From Ruminococcus flavefaciens MA2007 (GTDB taxonomy: Bacteria; Bacillota; Clostridia; Oscillospirales; Ruminococcaceae), in assembly GCF_000621845.1 (NCBI RefSeq), contig NZ_JHXF01000008.1, positions 62,001 to 126,000 of the forward strand: DNA of 64,000 bases, in the 5' to 3' direction. Position numbers and translations under genes: made by a program. How positions within the stretch are numbered: position 1 is the stretch's first letter; every line of letters begins with the position of its first letter. The notes under the pieces were generated by a model, which saw nothing but the letters and a program-made list of their open reading frames with translations, ran no database searches and had not been told where the DNA came from. This document shows positions 16,201 to 19,648 of this stretch, piece after piece.

Positions 16201-16229
16201 TTGACAAAACGTTATATATGGAGTAAAAT
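16201..16229 (+). promoter_or_regulatory. SigA-type promoter of the YGPP/radical SAM locus
   Basis: TTGACA (16201-16206), 17 bases, TAAAAT (16224-16229), 85 bases before the first gene. Confidence 0.8.
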
Positions 16230-16313: not shown

Positions 16314-16688
16314 ATGAAGAAGAATAAAAAGACCGCTCTTATGGCTGCTATACTTACGGGAGCTGCTATGCTTGGCGGCTGCGACCACGGCGATGATAAG
16401 GTCGTAACGGTCTACGGACCGCCTGCAACGGAAGCAACTACGACTGCTGCAGAGCCAATTCAGACGGAATACGGCGCTCCTGTGGCTGAGGAGGTCACAA
16501 CAACAGCGACCAAGCCTGTGACGGTACCTGCACTTTATGGACCGCCGCCTACGGAGAGCTTTACCACTGACGCAATTACTGAGCCTGTAACAGAAAAGAA
16601 AGATATAGAAGAGGAAACCGTGCCGTATTCTCCCGATAAGGACAAGATACAGCTGGTATATGGGCCGCCCGAAAGCTTCGGCGAGTAG
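16314..16688 (+). CDS. YGPP-repeat lipoprotein, candidate radical SAM substrate
   Basis: 124 residues. The lipobox is LGGC with Cys 23 as the lipidated residue. The mature part is low-complexity, Thr/Glu/Pro-rich and probably unfolded, with four Tyr-Gly motifs: VYGPP at 34, EYGAP at 53, LYGPP at 75 and VYGPP at 116. YSP at 105 may be a degenerate copy. GGGAGGG lies 7 bases before the ATG. It heads a run of three secreted proteins sharing this motif and ending in a radical SAM/SPASM gene, which suggests the motif Tyr or Pro is modified. That is inference; no such peptide is known to me in this genus. Confidence 0.85.
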   Translation: MKKNKKTALMAAILTGAAMLGGCDHGDDKVVTVYGPPATEATTTAAEPIQTEYGAPVAEEVTTTATKPVTVPALYGPPPTESFTTDAITEPVTEKKDIEEETVPYSPDKDKIQLVYGPPESFGE

Positions 16689-16808
16689 AAATGCATGATA
16701 AGGCGTGACCTTGTTTTGCACCTCTGTAAGTTTTGAAGCGAATGAGAGAAACTTATATGTTTCAGTGCATTTATTATATGGCACTGCATTTTTGGAGGAC
16801 GTGATTCT

Positions 16809-17627
16809 ATGAAAAAGACCTTGCGCACGGTCTTCACTGCGGCTATGTTCGCGGCAGCTAATCTGTCTGCGCTCCCCACTTCGGCAGAGGAGCTTGCTTC
16901 TGATAATCAGTGGAAACAGATAGGCACTGATGATGCAGAAATGAACTGGTCGTTCTGGGACGATTTTGATTATCTGGCAGGTCAGAATCAATATAGTATG
17001 TATGGTGCTCAATCCATCTTTGGCGAAAACCGAAATTATGATGACTGGAATAATTACATCTGGACTGTTCCCACGACTGCTGCTGATAATGAGCAGACGA
17101 CCACTACAACTGACGCACAGTTGTTATTTACGATAACGACAACTGCACAACAGCCTCTTTACGGGCCTGTAATGAGCATAAGGGATTTCGGTGACCTTAA
17201 TCTTGATGAACGGATCGATATATTTGACGAAGTTGCTCTGAAAAAGATGCTTATAAACGGTATGGAGTTTTCGTCCTATGATAATTTCCGTAAGATACAT
17301 AATGCTGACATAAATCAGGACGATAATGTGAATATCGCTGATCTTACCCTTCTTAGGAAGTTCCTTCTAGGCAAGATAGATTCATTTGATATTGACAGAA
17401 GTAAAATGATGATGTTAGGCAAGACTGTTGAGACTATAGCAGCTGATGAAAAAGAAAAACCTTTTGTGACTACAGAGACCACAACTACAACTGCTTTCCC
17501 TTACGATCCGAGAGAGGATATAGTTGTAAGTCTCTACGGCATAAAGCCTGCAAAGGATATCATTGATCAGGCTATCTGGCAGACCAAGGATAATATAGAT
17601 ATAAATATTTCATCGGAAGATGAATAA
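16809..17627 (+). CDS. Secreted dockerin protein with YG motifs
   Basis: 272 residues. The signal peptide ends near residue 26 (TSA-EE). An acidic, aromatic region (WSFWDDFDYLAGQNQ) follows, then Thr-rich linkers (about 88-113 and 221-229). Three YG motifs: MYGAQ at 65, LYGPV at 118, LYGIKP at 243. A dockerin spans about 127-193, with loops DLNLDERIDIFD and DINQDDNVNIADL. LYGPV stands immediately before the dockerin, and LYGIKPA is in the C-terminal tail. GGAGG lies 10 bases before the ATG. No catalytic domain was seen. Confidence 0.88.
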   Translation: MKKTLRTVFTAAMFAAANLSALPTSAEELASDNQWKQIGTDDAEMNWSFWDDFDYLAGQNQYSMYGAQSIFGENRNYDDWNNYIWTVPTTAADNEQTTTTTDAQLLFTITTTAQQPLYGPVMSIRDFGDLNLDERIDIFDEVALKKMLINGMEFSSYDNFRKIHNADINQDDNVNIADLTLLRKFLLGKIDSFDIDRSKMMMLGKTVETIAADEKEKPFVTTETTTTTAFPYDPREDIVVSLYGIKPAKDIIDQAIWQTKDNIDINISSEDE

Positions 17628-17666
17628 AAAATAAACTATGCAAATTATTGAGAGGAGTGTTCCAAC

Positions 17667-18503
17667 ATGAAAAAAACAATTCACACACTATTGACTGCGG
17701 CACTTTTTGCAACAGCAAATATGTCTGCTATGCCTGTTGTGGCAGAGGACGGCGGCACTGTCGTTAAGCCCGAAACAGCAGAGCCGATGTCGCTGGGCGA
17801 ACAGTCGGAAAAAGAGGGGGATACTGACAGCGTAAGCGCTGACGGCGTAAACTACAATATCCTGAAGGCTACAACAAAGTCTATGGCTCCCGTATACGGT
17901 CCGCCTCCGACGACTACCGTAAATACTTCAGCTCTCATAGATGTGACTACTACTACAACACAGCCTGTTTACGGCACTCAGCCTACCATATCTCTGACAT
18001 CGACAACTACATCTCTTCCTGAGTGGCTGATGACGACTACCACAACTACCGTAGAGATACTCTATGGTCCTGTTGTTCCCCGCAACCGTCTTGGCGACGT
18101 AAACGAGGACGGCGACGTGGATATTTTCGACCTTGTAGCTCTCAGAAAGATCCTTGTAAGCGGACAGAGCCGCTCATTCTATTCGGATAACTATGCCGAT
18201 GTCAATTTCGACCGCAAGGTAAATATGGCTGACCTTGTACGTCTCCAGCAGTTCCTCCTCGGCAAGATAGACAGCCTTTACGACGGTCAGTGGGACTTCA
18301 TGAGGGGAAAGACCATTGAGCCCGTAGGTGGAAATAATGAGCAGGATATCGAGACTACTACCACAACTACATATAAACCGGGAAGGGTGACTACTGTTAC
18401 TCTTTACGGTATCATGCCTGCAAGAAGTGTAAATGCTCAGTATATCGATCCTGATGAAACTACATATACTACTGCTGAAGAAATCACACCAGAGGAGAAG
18501 TAA
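17667..18503 (+). CDS. Secreted dockerin protein with YG motifs, paralogue
   Basis: 278 residues, clearly paralogous to the preceding gene: same signal peptide start (MKKTIHTLLTAALFATANMS), dockerin and tail. YG motifs: VYGPP at 77, VYGTQP at 102, LYGPV at 133 (just before the dockerin), LYGIMPA at 247. The dockerin spans about 142-204, loops DVNEDGDVDIFD and DVNFDRKVNMADL. Thr-rich linkers separate the motifs. GAGGAG lies 10 bases before the ATG. The stop is 3 bases before the radical SAM start, and that gene's ribosome site lies within this gene's last codons, so the two are translationally coupled. Confidence 0.9.
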   Translation: MKKTIHTLLTAALFATANMSAMPVVAEDGGTVVKPETAEPMSLGEQSEKEGDTDSVSADGVNYNILKATTKSMAPVYGPPPTTTVNTSALIDVTTTTTQPVYGTQPTISLTSTTTSLPEWLMTTTTTTVEILYGPVVPRNRLGDVNEDGDVDIFDLVALRKILVSGQSRSFYSDNYADVNFDRKVNMADLVRLQQFLLGKIDSLYDGQWDFMRGKTIEPVGGNNEQDIETTTTTTYKPGRVTTVTLYGIMPARSVNAQYIDPDETTYTTAEEITPEEK

Positions 18504-18506
18504 TAC

Positions 18507-19580
18507 ATGCTCGACGAAAAAATGAAGCTTGAACACCTCAGACAGATGAGGGATTACCGCCAGAAGCTCATGAAGGAGCCTCAGCTGAGAAACCTTTTCC
18601 TTGAGCTGACAGTGCGCTGCAACGAGAGATGTCTCCACTGCGGAAGCCACTGCGGCGATGTTACCTCAGACGAGCTGACAGTTGAGCAGTATAAAACCTT
18701 CCTCCAGCAGGTCAAGGAGGACATGACCACCAAGGGCAAAATGCTTGATATCACAGGCGGAGAGCCCCTGCTCAGAAAGGATTTCTTCGATATCATGGGA
18801 GCTGCCCATGAGCTGGGCTTCGAGTGGGGCATGACCAGCAATGCTACTCTCATCGATGACAGCGTTGCCCGTGACCTTAGAAGAACAGGCATGGCTACTA
18901 TTTCCGTAAGTATCGACGGTCTTGAAGCTACTCACGACGAGTTCAGAAGAACTCCCAAGGGCTATGAGAGAGCTATGAACGGTATCGAGAGCCTTATCCG
19001 TGTAGGCGGCTTTGAGAGCATTCAGGTCACTACCGTTGTTACTCACAAGAGCATAAGCGAGCTTGATGAGCTCTTCAAGATATTCAACGAAATGGATATA
19101 GACTCATGGCGAGTTGTAAACATGGAGCCCATGGGACGTGCAAAGCAGCACCCCGAGCTCATACTTACTCCTGATGATTACAAGTATCTCTTCGAGTTCA
19201 TCAGAAACAAGCGTATCGCAGGCGAGCCTGTCTGCTACGGCTGCAGCCATTACCTCGGCATGGAGTACGAGCGCGAGGTCCGCGACTGGTACTATCTCTG
19301 TACAGCAGGACTTTACACAGCAAGTATCACCGCAAACGGCGATATCGTTGCCTGTCTCGATATCGAGCGCCGTCCCGAGTTTACACAGGGAAATATCCTC
19401 AATGACAGATTCAGCGAGGTCTGGAAGAACAAGTTCCAGATATTCCGCCGCGACCTTGCAGACGATAACGAAGTCTGTTCAAAGTGCGAGCACAAGGAAT
19501 TCTGCCACGGCGATGCTTATCACAGCTGGGACTTTGACAACAACAAGCCGCAGGTATGCTTCAAGGATATCCTTTTCTGA
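18507..19580 (+). CDS. Radical SAM/SPASM maturase-like enzyme
   Basis: 357 residues. The 4Fe-4S cluster that cleaves SAM is held by Cys 38, 42 and 45 (VRCNERCLHCGSHC), with TGGEP at 83-87 for SAM binding. A SPASM-type C-terminus supplies Cys 243, 246, 265, 283, 324, 327, 333 and 351 (CSKCEHKEFC) for auxiliary clusters. Such enzymes usually modify ribosomal peptides or act on sugars and cofactors. No separate precursor-binding RRE domain was seen. Coupling to the YG-motif genes makes those proteins the likely substrates. GAGGAG is 8 bases before the ATG. I recall rSAM/lipoprotein pairs in Bacteroidetes as the nearest analogy, but did not verify it. Confidence 0.9.
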   Translation: MLDEKMKLEHLRQMRDYRQKLMKEPQLRNLFLELTVRCNERCLHCGSHCGDVTSDELTVEQYKTFLQQVKEDMTTKGKMLDITGGEPLLRKDFFDIMGAAHELGFEWGMTSNATLIDDSVARDLRRTGMATISVSIDGLEATHDEFRRTPKGYERAMNGIESLIRVGGFESIQVTTVVTHKSISELDELFKIFNEMDIDSWRVVNMEPMGRAKQHPELILTPDDYKYLFEFIRNKRIAGEPVCYGCSHYLGMEYEREVRDWYYLCTAGLYTASITANGDIVACLDIERRPEFTQGNILNDRFSEVWKNKFQIFRRDLADDNEVCSKCEHKEFCHGDAYHSWDFDNNKPQVCFKDILF

Positions 19581-19612: not shown

Positions 19613-19648
19613 AAAAAAGTACGGAAACATCGGGTTTCCGTACTTTTT
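19613..19648. terminator. Bidirectional terminator between rSAM gene and ddh
   Basis: AAAAAAGTACGGAAAC, ATCGG, GTTTCCGTACTTTTT. It serves two convergent genes. Confidence 0.9.

Follow-up and report, generated by a model that had tools for sequence, protein, structure and literature searches.

Why should a radical S-adenosylmethionine (SAM) enzyme be encoded directly behind secreted proteins that carry dockerin domains? The question is raised by four genes at positions 16314-19580 of a 64,000-nucleotide stretch of DNA from Ruminococcus flavefaciens MA2007, whose genome comprises 3.39 Mb (contig NZ_JHXF01000008.1, positions 62,001 to 126,000; G000:C6:62001-126000 in our numbering; hereafter, the window). 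The four genes, which lie on the same strand with a promoter-like site 5' and a terminator-like hairpin 3' of them, encode a lipoprotein (P1), two dockerin proteins (P2 and P3) and a radical SAM/SPASM enzyme. P1, P2 and P3 share X-Tyr-Gly (XYG) motifs, and across the genus, the enzyme is coupled to such proteins: in all 62 genomes in which it was detected, at least one same-strand open reading frame (ORF) upstream of it contains YGP or YG-x-P (the neighbourhoods were all read). We regard this coupling as practically certain and consider it probable, given the enzyme family and the motif, that the XYG sites of P1, P2 and P3 are spliced by the enzyme. The features of the locus are as follows.

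16314..16688, + strand: P1, lipoprotein of 124 aa with four XYG motifs and the signal peptide MKKNKKTALMAAILTGAAMLGGC
16809..17627, + strand: P2, secreted dockerin protein of 272 aa with three XYG motifs and 0 Cys
17190..17369, + strand: Dockerin_1 domain of P2 (PF00404, 30.2 bits, cut-off 22.9)
17667..18503, + strand: P3, secreted dockerin protein of 278 aa with four XYG motifs and 0 Cys
18090..18260, + strand: Dockerin_1 domain of P3 (PF00404, 44.8 bits, cut-off 22.9)
18507..19580, + strand: radical SAM/SPASM enzyme of 357 aa, TIGR04133-like, proposed XYG splicease (PF04055 and PF13186 over cut-off)
16201..16229, + strand: promoter-like site (TTGACA, 17 nt, TAAAAT) 5' of P1, 11/12 consensus match; weak evidence of a promoter, as 6.3 such sites are expected in the region and 10 occur
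19614..19648, + strand: terminator-like hairpin 3' of the enzyme gene, 15 pairs and a T tail, consensus match only

An earlier reading made without database searches (the sequence-only reading) had described three adjoining secreted proteins with eleven YG motifs, and the count agrees: P1, P2 and P3 contain 4 + 3 + 4 Tyr-Gly pairs, the Tyr codons of the motifs starting at 16413, 16470, 16536 and 16659 (P1), 17001, 17160 and 17535 (P2), and 17895, 17970, 18063 and 18405 (P3). As it had also noted, each dockerin protein carries one LYGPV immediately ahead of its dockerin and, close to the C-terminus, one LYGI-x-PA, and the enzyme gene starts (ATG at 18507) 3 bases past the P3 stop codon, with its ribosome site, GAGGAG, inside P3. 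One of the 11 motifs, MYGAQ (17001, P2), has no proline after YG. The linkers are Thr-rich (23% Thr in residues 28-139 of P3), and the only Cys of P1 is that of its lipobox, LGGC.

XYG proteins and the enzyme within the genus

When 125 genomes of the genus were searched with the TIGR04133 model (E ≤ 1e-55), the enzyme was found in 62; of these loci, 59 were scanned together and three (L165, L166 and L167) were examined separately. XYG lipoproteins precede the enzyme in other loci of the genus, too. Genomes with the enzyme (62) have a median of 11 sites of the YGPP DNA pattern, those without it (63) a median of 2, and the density per Mb differs strongly between the two sets (Mann-Whitney p ~ 4 × 10−16), with no difference for the backwards control pattern (p = 0.24), although these p values overstate independence because the genomes are related. 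In the MA2007 genome, 4 of the 10 YGPP sites are located at this locus; the other 6 include three AAA/Walker-A 'YGPPG' motifs, one site in a zinc-ribbon-like protein and two in frames too short for plausible genes, and none of the 10 sites points to a convincing unlinked substrate.

Among 94 substrates of the genus, YG occurs 399 times, whereas 200 composition shuffles gave 55 on average and never more than 77. The X residue of these 399 sites is V in 211 and L in 72, the rest being spread over 16 other residues (18 types in total), and P occupies position +2 in 309 sites and position +3 in 278; 45 of the 94 substrates have no Cys at all. The columns of an alignment of 21 dockerin substrates of the genus, all with Dockerin_1, are 25% identical on average. 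No variation is seen at the N-terminal K, T, A and F, four dockerin Asp and Y247-G248, and conservation of at least 90% was observed for Y77-G78, Y102 and Y133-G134-P135. Thus, YG pairs are kept, together with the dockerin calcium sites and the signal peptide, in otherwise divergent substrates, i.e. YG is selectively conserved. Position is maintained as well: among 63 dockerin-size proteins of the genus, YG is present within 30 aa before the dockerin in 58 and in the last 60 aa in 60.

The substrates also share an N-terminal motif, MKK...T..[TM]AA, detected in 94 of the 110 motif ORFs of the genus, lipoproteins and dockerin proteins alike; of the 16 ORFs lacking it, L128 and L138 are unclear, and the others are truncated at the end of a contig or of the retrieved stretch, read in the wrong frame or unrelated. 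At least one ORF with this motif is present at 57 of the 59 genus loci, the other two (L134 and L154) being cut by contig ends. Among the 167 open frames of the window, only P1, P2 and P3 carry it (the respective regions are 16314-16380, 16809-16880 and 17667-17740), and none of 20 other dockerin ORFs does, these 20 having been examined out of the 139 dockerin matches in the MA2007 genome. Because the motif is common to the substrates and absent from the 20 other dockerin ORFs, the signal peptide is proposed as the recognition leader of the enzyme; that it doubles in this capacity is speculative.

The enzyme family and its neighbours outside the genus

The CX3CX2C motif of the enzyme consists of C38, C42 and C45. 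Beyond it, eight SPASM-type cysteines had been reported in the sequence-only reading; we count nine (positions 49, 243, 246, 265, 283, 324, 327, 333 and 351), of which all but C243, that is, eight, are invariant in 17 genus orthologues. The best NCBIfam match is TIGR04133 (rSAM_w_lipo) with 274 bits, under the cut-off of 425, followed by AhbD (146), NirJ2 (135), MftC (134) and TIGR04103 (121). The TIGR04133 cut-off is exceeded in 0 of the 125 genus genomes, so that the enzyme represents a sister subfamily and is not a member by that rule.

In a quick tree of 64 rows, 41 TIGR04133-like and 8 TIGR04103/TIGR03913-like enzymes form one 49-row clade apart from the heme-type enzymes and MftC, with the window enzyme in a separate Bacillota branch of 13 rows. 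A careful tree (62 rows, 330 columns) recovered the same 49 rows on one side of a branch with support 100/99; the label 'XYG neighbour' in this tree was set by clade, so that the change count is partly circular and shows only that the 49 rows make up one side of that branch. Of 113 proteins, 64 entered the quick tree and 62 the careful one. L086, which is frameshifted, is absent from both trees and from the signature count, and the long-branched L125 and L097 were omitted from the careful tree as well as from that count. In the signature count, CX3CX2C is followed by HCGS in 87 of 87 clade members vs. 0 of 23 outgroup rows, and clade and outgroup also differ at R259 (97% vs. 4%), G251 (94% vs. 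0), E255 (98% vs. 35%) and W201 (100% vs. 30%); HCGS and these four residues are candidate active-site residues. Identity as a heme-type enzyme is rejected by the tree and the neighbours; the scanned outgroup rows match NirJ2 (22/22) and AhbD (21/22) at E ≤ 1e-60. In an AlphaFold model of the enzyme (mean predicted local distance difference test score 92), the SPASM fold is closest to SuiB (Z 26.7), then ChlB and anSME, and the single helix before the barrel suggests that there is no built-in recognition element (RRE) domain for ribosomally synthesized and post-translationally modified peptides (RiPPs). No solved splicease structure is among the structure matches listed (the best being SuiB, ChlB, anSME, CteB and SkfB), an absence that is uninformative.

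The best 80 of 549 confirmed relatives, i.e. 59 TIGR04133-like loci and 21 heme-type outgroup loci, were scanned on their genome contigs for a same-strand ORF of 40-300 aa, at most 700 bp from the enzyme, with YGP or YG-x-P. Such a neighbour is present at 54 of the 59 TIGR04133-like loci vs. 0 of the 21 heme-type loci. Seven control motifs, sought in the same manner, were found at 1-7 of the 59 loci, and on the opposite strand, 6 of the 59 have a chance-like YG-P ORF. Whether relatives of the enzyme regularly adjoin YG-motif proteins, as the sequence-only reading had asked, is thereby answered in the affirmative, for every enzyme-bearing genome of the genus and for most loci outside it. The 0/21 count depends on the 300-aa limit: without it, six outgroup loci (L091, L094, L098, L099, L108 and L109) have, within 700 bp, a 325-376-aa protein with a single conserved FYGPFR site, a housekeeping-type protein that we take to be HemB. 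Chance clustering of YG is rejected by the genome site count, the neighbour controls, the comparison of genomes with and without the enzyme, and the shuffles.

XYG proteins of other kinds also occur next to relatives of the enzyme. In a phylum sample, 5 of 398 genomes match the enzyme at E ≤ 1e-45, namely MA2007, the TIGR04133-like L020 (with a neighbour containing two VYGPPE) and three longer enzymes. NHLP-leader peptides with an AYG core lie near two of the latter (L022 and L023), and none was noticed in the neighbourhood of the third (L021). A Nostoc TIGR04103 enzyme (853 bits, cut-off 725) adjoins a Nif11 peptide ending ALYGLPPELF, and an Azospirillum GDL maturase adjoins a DUF1843 protein with RPYGPAM, a second DUF1843 copy lacking it. 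The Bacteroidota lipoproteins of TIGR04134 carry CEYGSP and CEYGTP, and their Treponema counterpart CYGMP. With the Bacteroidetes radical SAM/lipoprotein pairs, a comparison that the sequence-only reading had suggested, the enzyme shares one clade and YG-x-P partners. It is under the TIGR04133 cut-off, and TIGR04134 (cut-off 39.8 bits) does not hit P1, P2 or P3 at E ≤ 1.

Several further observations concern individual loci. On the Agathobacter rectalis plasmid NZ_CP143948.1 (L027:3734-3940), an unannotated short ORF ending LFGPVMYGTGVRM (MYGTGVRM) lies directly before a TIGR04103-like radical SAM gene and is likely an overlooked splicease precursor. At 12 of the 59 related loci (L044, L049, L050, L052, L055, L061, L069, L070, L072, L077, L087 and L089; 11 records titled Bacteroidota and one Spirochaetaceae), the lipobox Cys seems itself to be the X of the motif, e.g. 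FIMQA-C-YGTP, in the ORF directly upstream of the enzyme, and the same is seen at a Treponema plasmid locus (L026:3128-3517); at these loci, splicing would change the lipidated residue. In a Bacteroidota subgroup (L038, L040, L042 and L051), secreted YG-P proteins are encoded downstream of the enzyme, not upstream, and share a different N-terminal motif, e.g. KGKK.LTAVGAVVAAG (L038 and L042). The clostridial L035, the sole basal member of the TIGR04133-like branch, has a small membrane-spanning-looking protein with AYGVP near its N-terminus (L035:2990-3247), which differs from the secreted substrates at other loci.

Proposed reaction, its purpose and the alternatives

In the mechanism that we propose, the enzyme would act in the cytoplasm, ahead of secretion; it would recognise the conserved N-terminal segment, i.e. 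the signal peptide (MKK...T..TAA.FAAA), and act at X-Tyr-Gly sites in the unfolded Thr-rich linkers, where most of each motif tyrosine would be cut out of the protein backbone, leaving an alpha-ketoamide. The modified proteins would then be exported, P1 becoming lipid-anchored and P2 and P3 docking via their dockerins to cohesins of the cellulosome or the cell surface. There, the ketoamides would most likely be protease-inhibiting groups that shield the extracellular machinery.

The chemistry is read as tyramine splicing from family and motif, and the motif, the tolerance of X, the proline spacing and the clade all fit this reaction: in the genus substrates, X is variable and Y and G define the site, as described for PlpXY. 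The targets of that system are MYG and LYG, engineered GYG is tolerated, the RiPP leader is dispensable, and splice tags with PIRPGYGLPI work with it; 27 further characterised and 939 predicted splicing systems are mentioned (PMC10533398). PlpX has been assigned to IPR026482 (PMC11002830). The end of the Nostoc Nif11 peptide, ALYGLPPELF, resembles the tag PIRPGYGLPI. The sequence-only reading had proposed the YG motifs of dockerin and envelope proteins as targets of the enzyme; the genomic coupling is borne out, and the modification itself we infer.

Several observations weigh against splicing by this enzyme. By profile score, AhbD, NirJ2 and MftC are as near the enzyme as TIGR04103 is, the tree alone separating them; PlpX itself is not among the tree rows, and TIGR04103 is taken here to be the PlpX family (IPR026482). 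Five of the 59 TIGR04133-like loci have no small XYG neighbour as defined above: L074 has LMYGVRPP in a lipoprotein-like ORF, L038 has YG proteins that are longer or lie farther away, the only one at L081 is a large protein with YGRP, and L071 and L082 have none. Within the 49-row clade, L021, L081 and L124 are without a convincing XYG neighbour. No small non-substrate gene for an RRE partner (PlpY-like) was found beside the enzyme, and none was sought elsewhere in the genome; no modification at this locus is reported in the literature searched. Finally, 2 of 16 listed FtsZ tag insertions were spliced by PlpXY (PMC10533398), so that a bare XYG is not enough.

As for purpose, the MA2007 genome has 9 cohesin and 139 dockerin matches, and cohesin is detected in 124 of the 125 genus genomes; by their domain content in a cohesin-bearing genome, P2 and P3 are of the cellulosome component type, and their dockerins are predicted to bind the cohesins of this organism. 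That ketoamides on P1, P2 and P3 serve protease inhibition is a tentative suggestion, which we would sooner doubt than accept. Spliceotides have been described as protease inhibitors (PMC11117315; PMC11002830), and for the R. flavefaciens cellulosome, a protective role of serpin-dockerins has been discussed (PMC5301203). For two of the three serpins of the MA2007 genome, the open frame agrees in length and place with one that holds a dockerin match (C12, 665 aa; C15, 708 aa); these apparent cellulosomal serpins are located at G000:C12:96368-97777 and G000:C15:53112-54512 (loci L190 and L191). To view a ketoamide-bearing dockerin protein as the chemical counterpart of a dockerin-serpin is speculation.

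Even if splicing is right, the ketoamide might, conceivably, serve covalent attachment to amines of the wall, the matrix or partners, or some other purpose. Ketones react with amines and related nucleophiles, and the preferred location of YG, directly before the dockerin and near the C-terminus, speaks for attachment; however, inhibition of proteases is what has been reported of splicease products, and Ruminococcus has dockerin-serpins, as does, judging by open frame and position, the MA2007 genome. A purpose other than inhibition appears unlikely.

A different radical reaction at XYG, such as a Tyr-centred C-C or C-O cross-link, epimerisation at X or Gly, or Tyr oxidation without splicing, is rather improbable. 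The SPASM enzymes with the nearest solved folds do perform other chemistry (SuiB, ChlB, anSME, CteB and PqqE), and no chemistry for a TIGR04133-like enzyme was found in the literature searched. Nevertheless, the clade also takes in enzymes of the TIGR04103 type, next to which small proteins with a terminal XYG core are encoded, and X, +2 and +3 all vary, leaving no constant residue near the sites as a regular cross-link partner. Thioether (sacti- or ranthipeptide) chemistry is excluded for P2 and P3, which lack a donor Cys, and the single Cys of P1 belongs to the lipobox. That the enzyme leaves the YG motifs untouched, these being binding or structural elements and the genes being linked for another reason, is very improbable: Tyr/Pro-rich motifs can be plain binding motifs and modification at the locus is so far unreported, but the coupling extends over several phyla and unrelated substrates (lipoproteins, dockerin proteins, Nif11/NHLP peptides), and YGPP counts are higher only where the enzyme is present.

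Relation to known systems and meaning for the family

The proposed splicing system resembles PlpXY of Pleurocapsa sp. PCC 7319 in its radical SAM/SPASM enzyme and in unfolded X-Tyr-Gly sites with variable X (PMC10533398; PMC11002830). It differs in that a secreted lipoprotein and dockerin proteins carry several sites each, the chemistry being inferred, and in that a signal peptide takes the place of the RiPP leader, with no RRE gene beside the enzyme. A further likeness is the clade shared with a TIGR04103 enzyme, given that PlpX presumably belongs to TIGR04103. The TIGR04133/TIGR04134 pair of Bacteroidota and Treponema likewise combines a TIGR04133-like enzyme with an adjoining secreted partner containing YG-x-P, whereas the window enzyme is under the cut-off and in the separate Bacillota branch. 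The TIGR03913 GDL maturases of Azospirillum and Aureibacter belong to the same 49-row clade and have one DUF1843 neighbour each with PYG; these are, however, small cytosolic-type proteins, and that YG is missing from further DUF1843 copies at these loci. Dockerin-serpins share the proposed role, an inhibitor brought to the cellulosome by a dockerin (PMC5301203), but are folded inhibitors, compared to backbone ketoamides in disordered linkers here.

XYG splicing as a kind of reaction is already known. The view of the sequence-only reading that known substrates are small peptides does not hold, as proteins feature in published splicease work and the family's lipoprotein partners have been catalogued; the survey of splicing systems by Scott et al. 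2022 reportedly extends, to go by its title, to XYG splicing on proteins, and may already list part of this family. In the mostly open-access literature searched, we found nothing that connects TIGR04133-like enzymes to substrates of the XYG, dockerin or cellulosome kind, no leader-like signal peptide for such enzymes, and no paper combining dockerin, radical SAM and Ruminococcus; TIGR04133, TIGR04134 or its lipoprotein name is in no paper among the matches listed, which is weak evidence of novelty.

The following broader claim is possible, although we place it somewhat short of an even chance: the whole TIGR04133-like clade (Bacillota, Bacteroidota, Spirochaetota and others) would consist of protein spliceases that act on secreted proteins without an RRE and use the signal peptide as leader, and which in cellulosome-forming Ruminococcus-type bacteria would arm dockerin proteins with several alpha-ketoamides, a chemical counterpart of dockerin-serpins, and in many Bacteroidota would alter the lipobox Cys (QA-C-YGTP). 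A widespread enzyme-lipoprotein pair labelled 'hypothetical equivalog' by NCBIfam thereby gains a testable chemistry, and so, possibly, do some Ruminococcus dockerin proteins of unknown function, of which R. flavefaciens FD-1 has 118 (PMC2930009). As ~135 Da (C8H9NO) would be lost per site, ordinary proteomics would miss the affected peptides. If splicing is right, a radical SAM enzyme would be seen to use a signal peptide for recognition and to act ahead of export, gut fibre degraders would bear backbone-edited, electrophilic residues in their cellulosome and envelope, and protein engineering would gain new splice tags.

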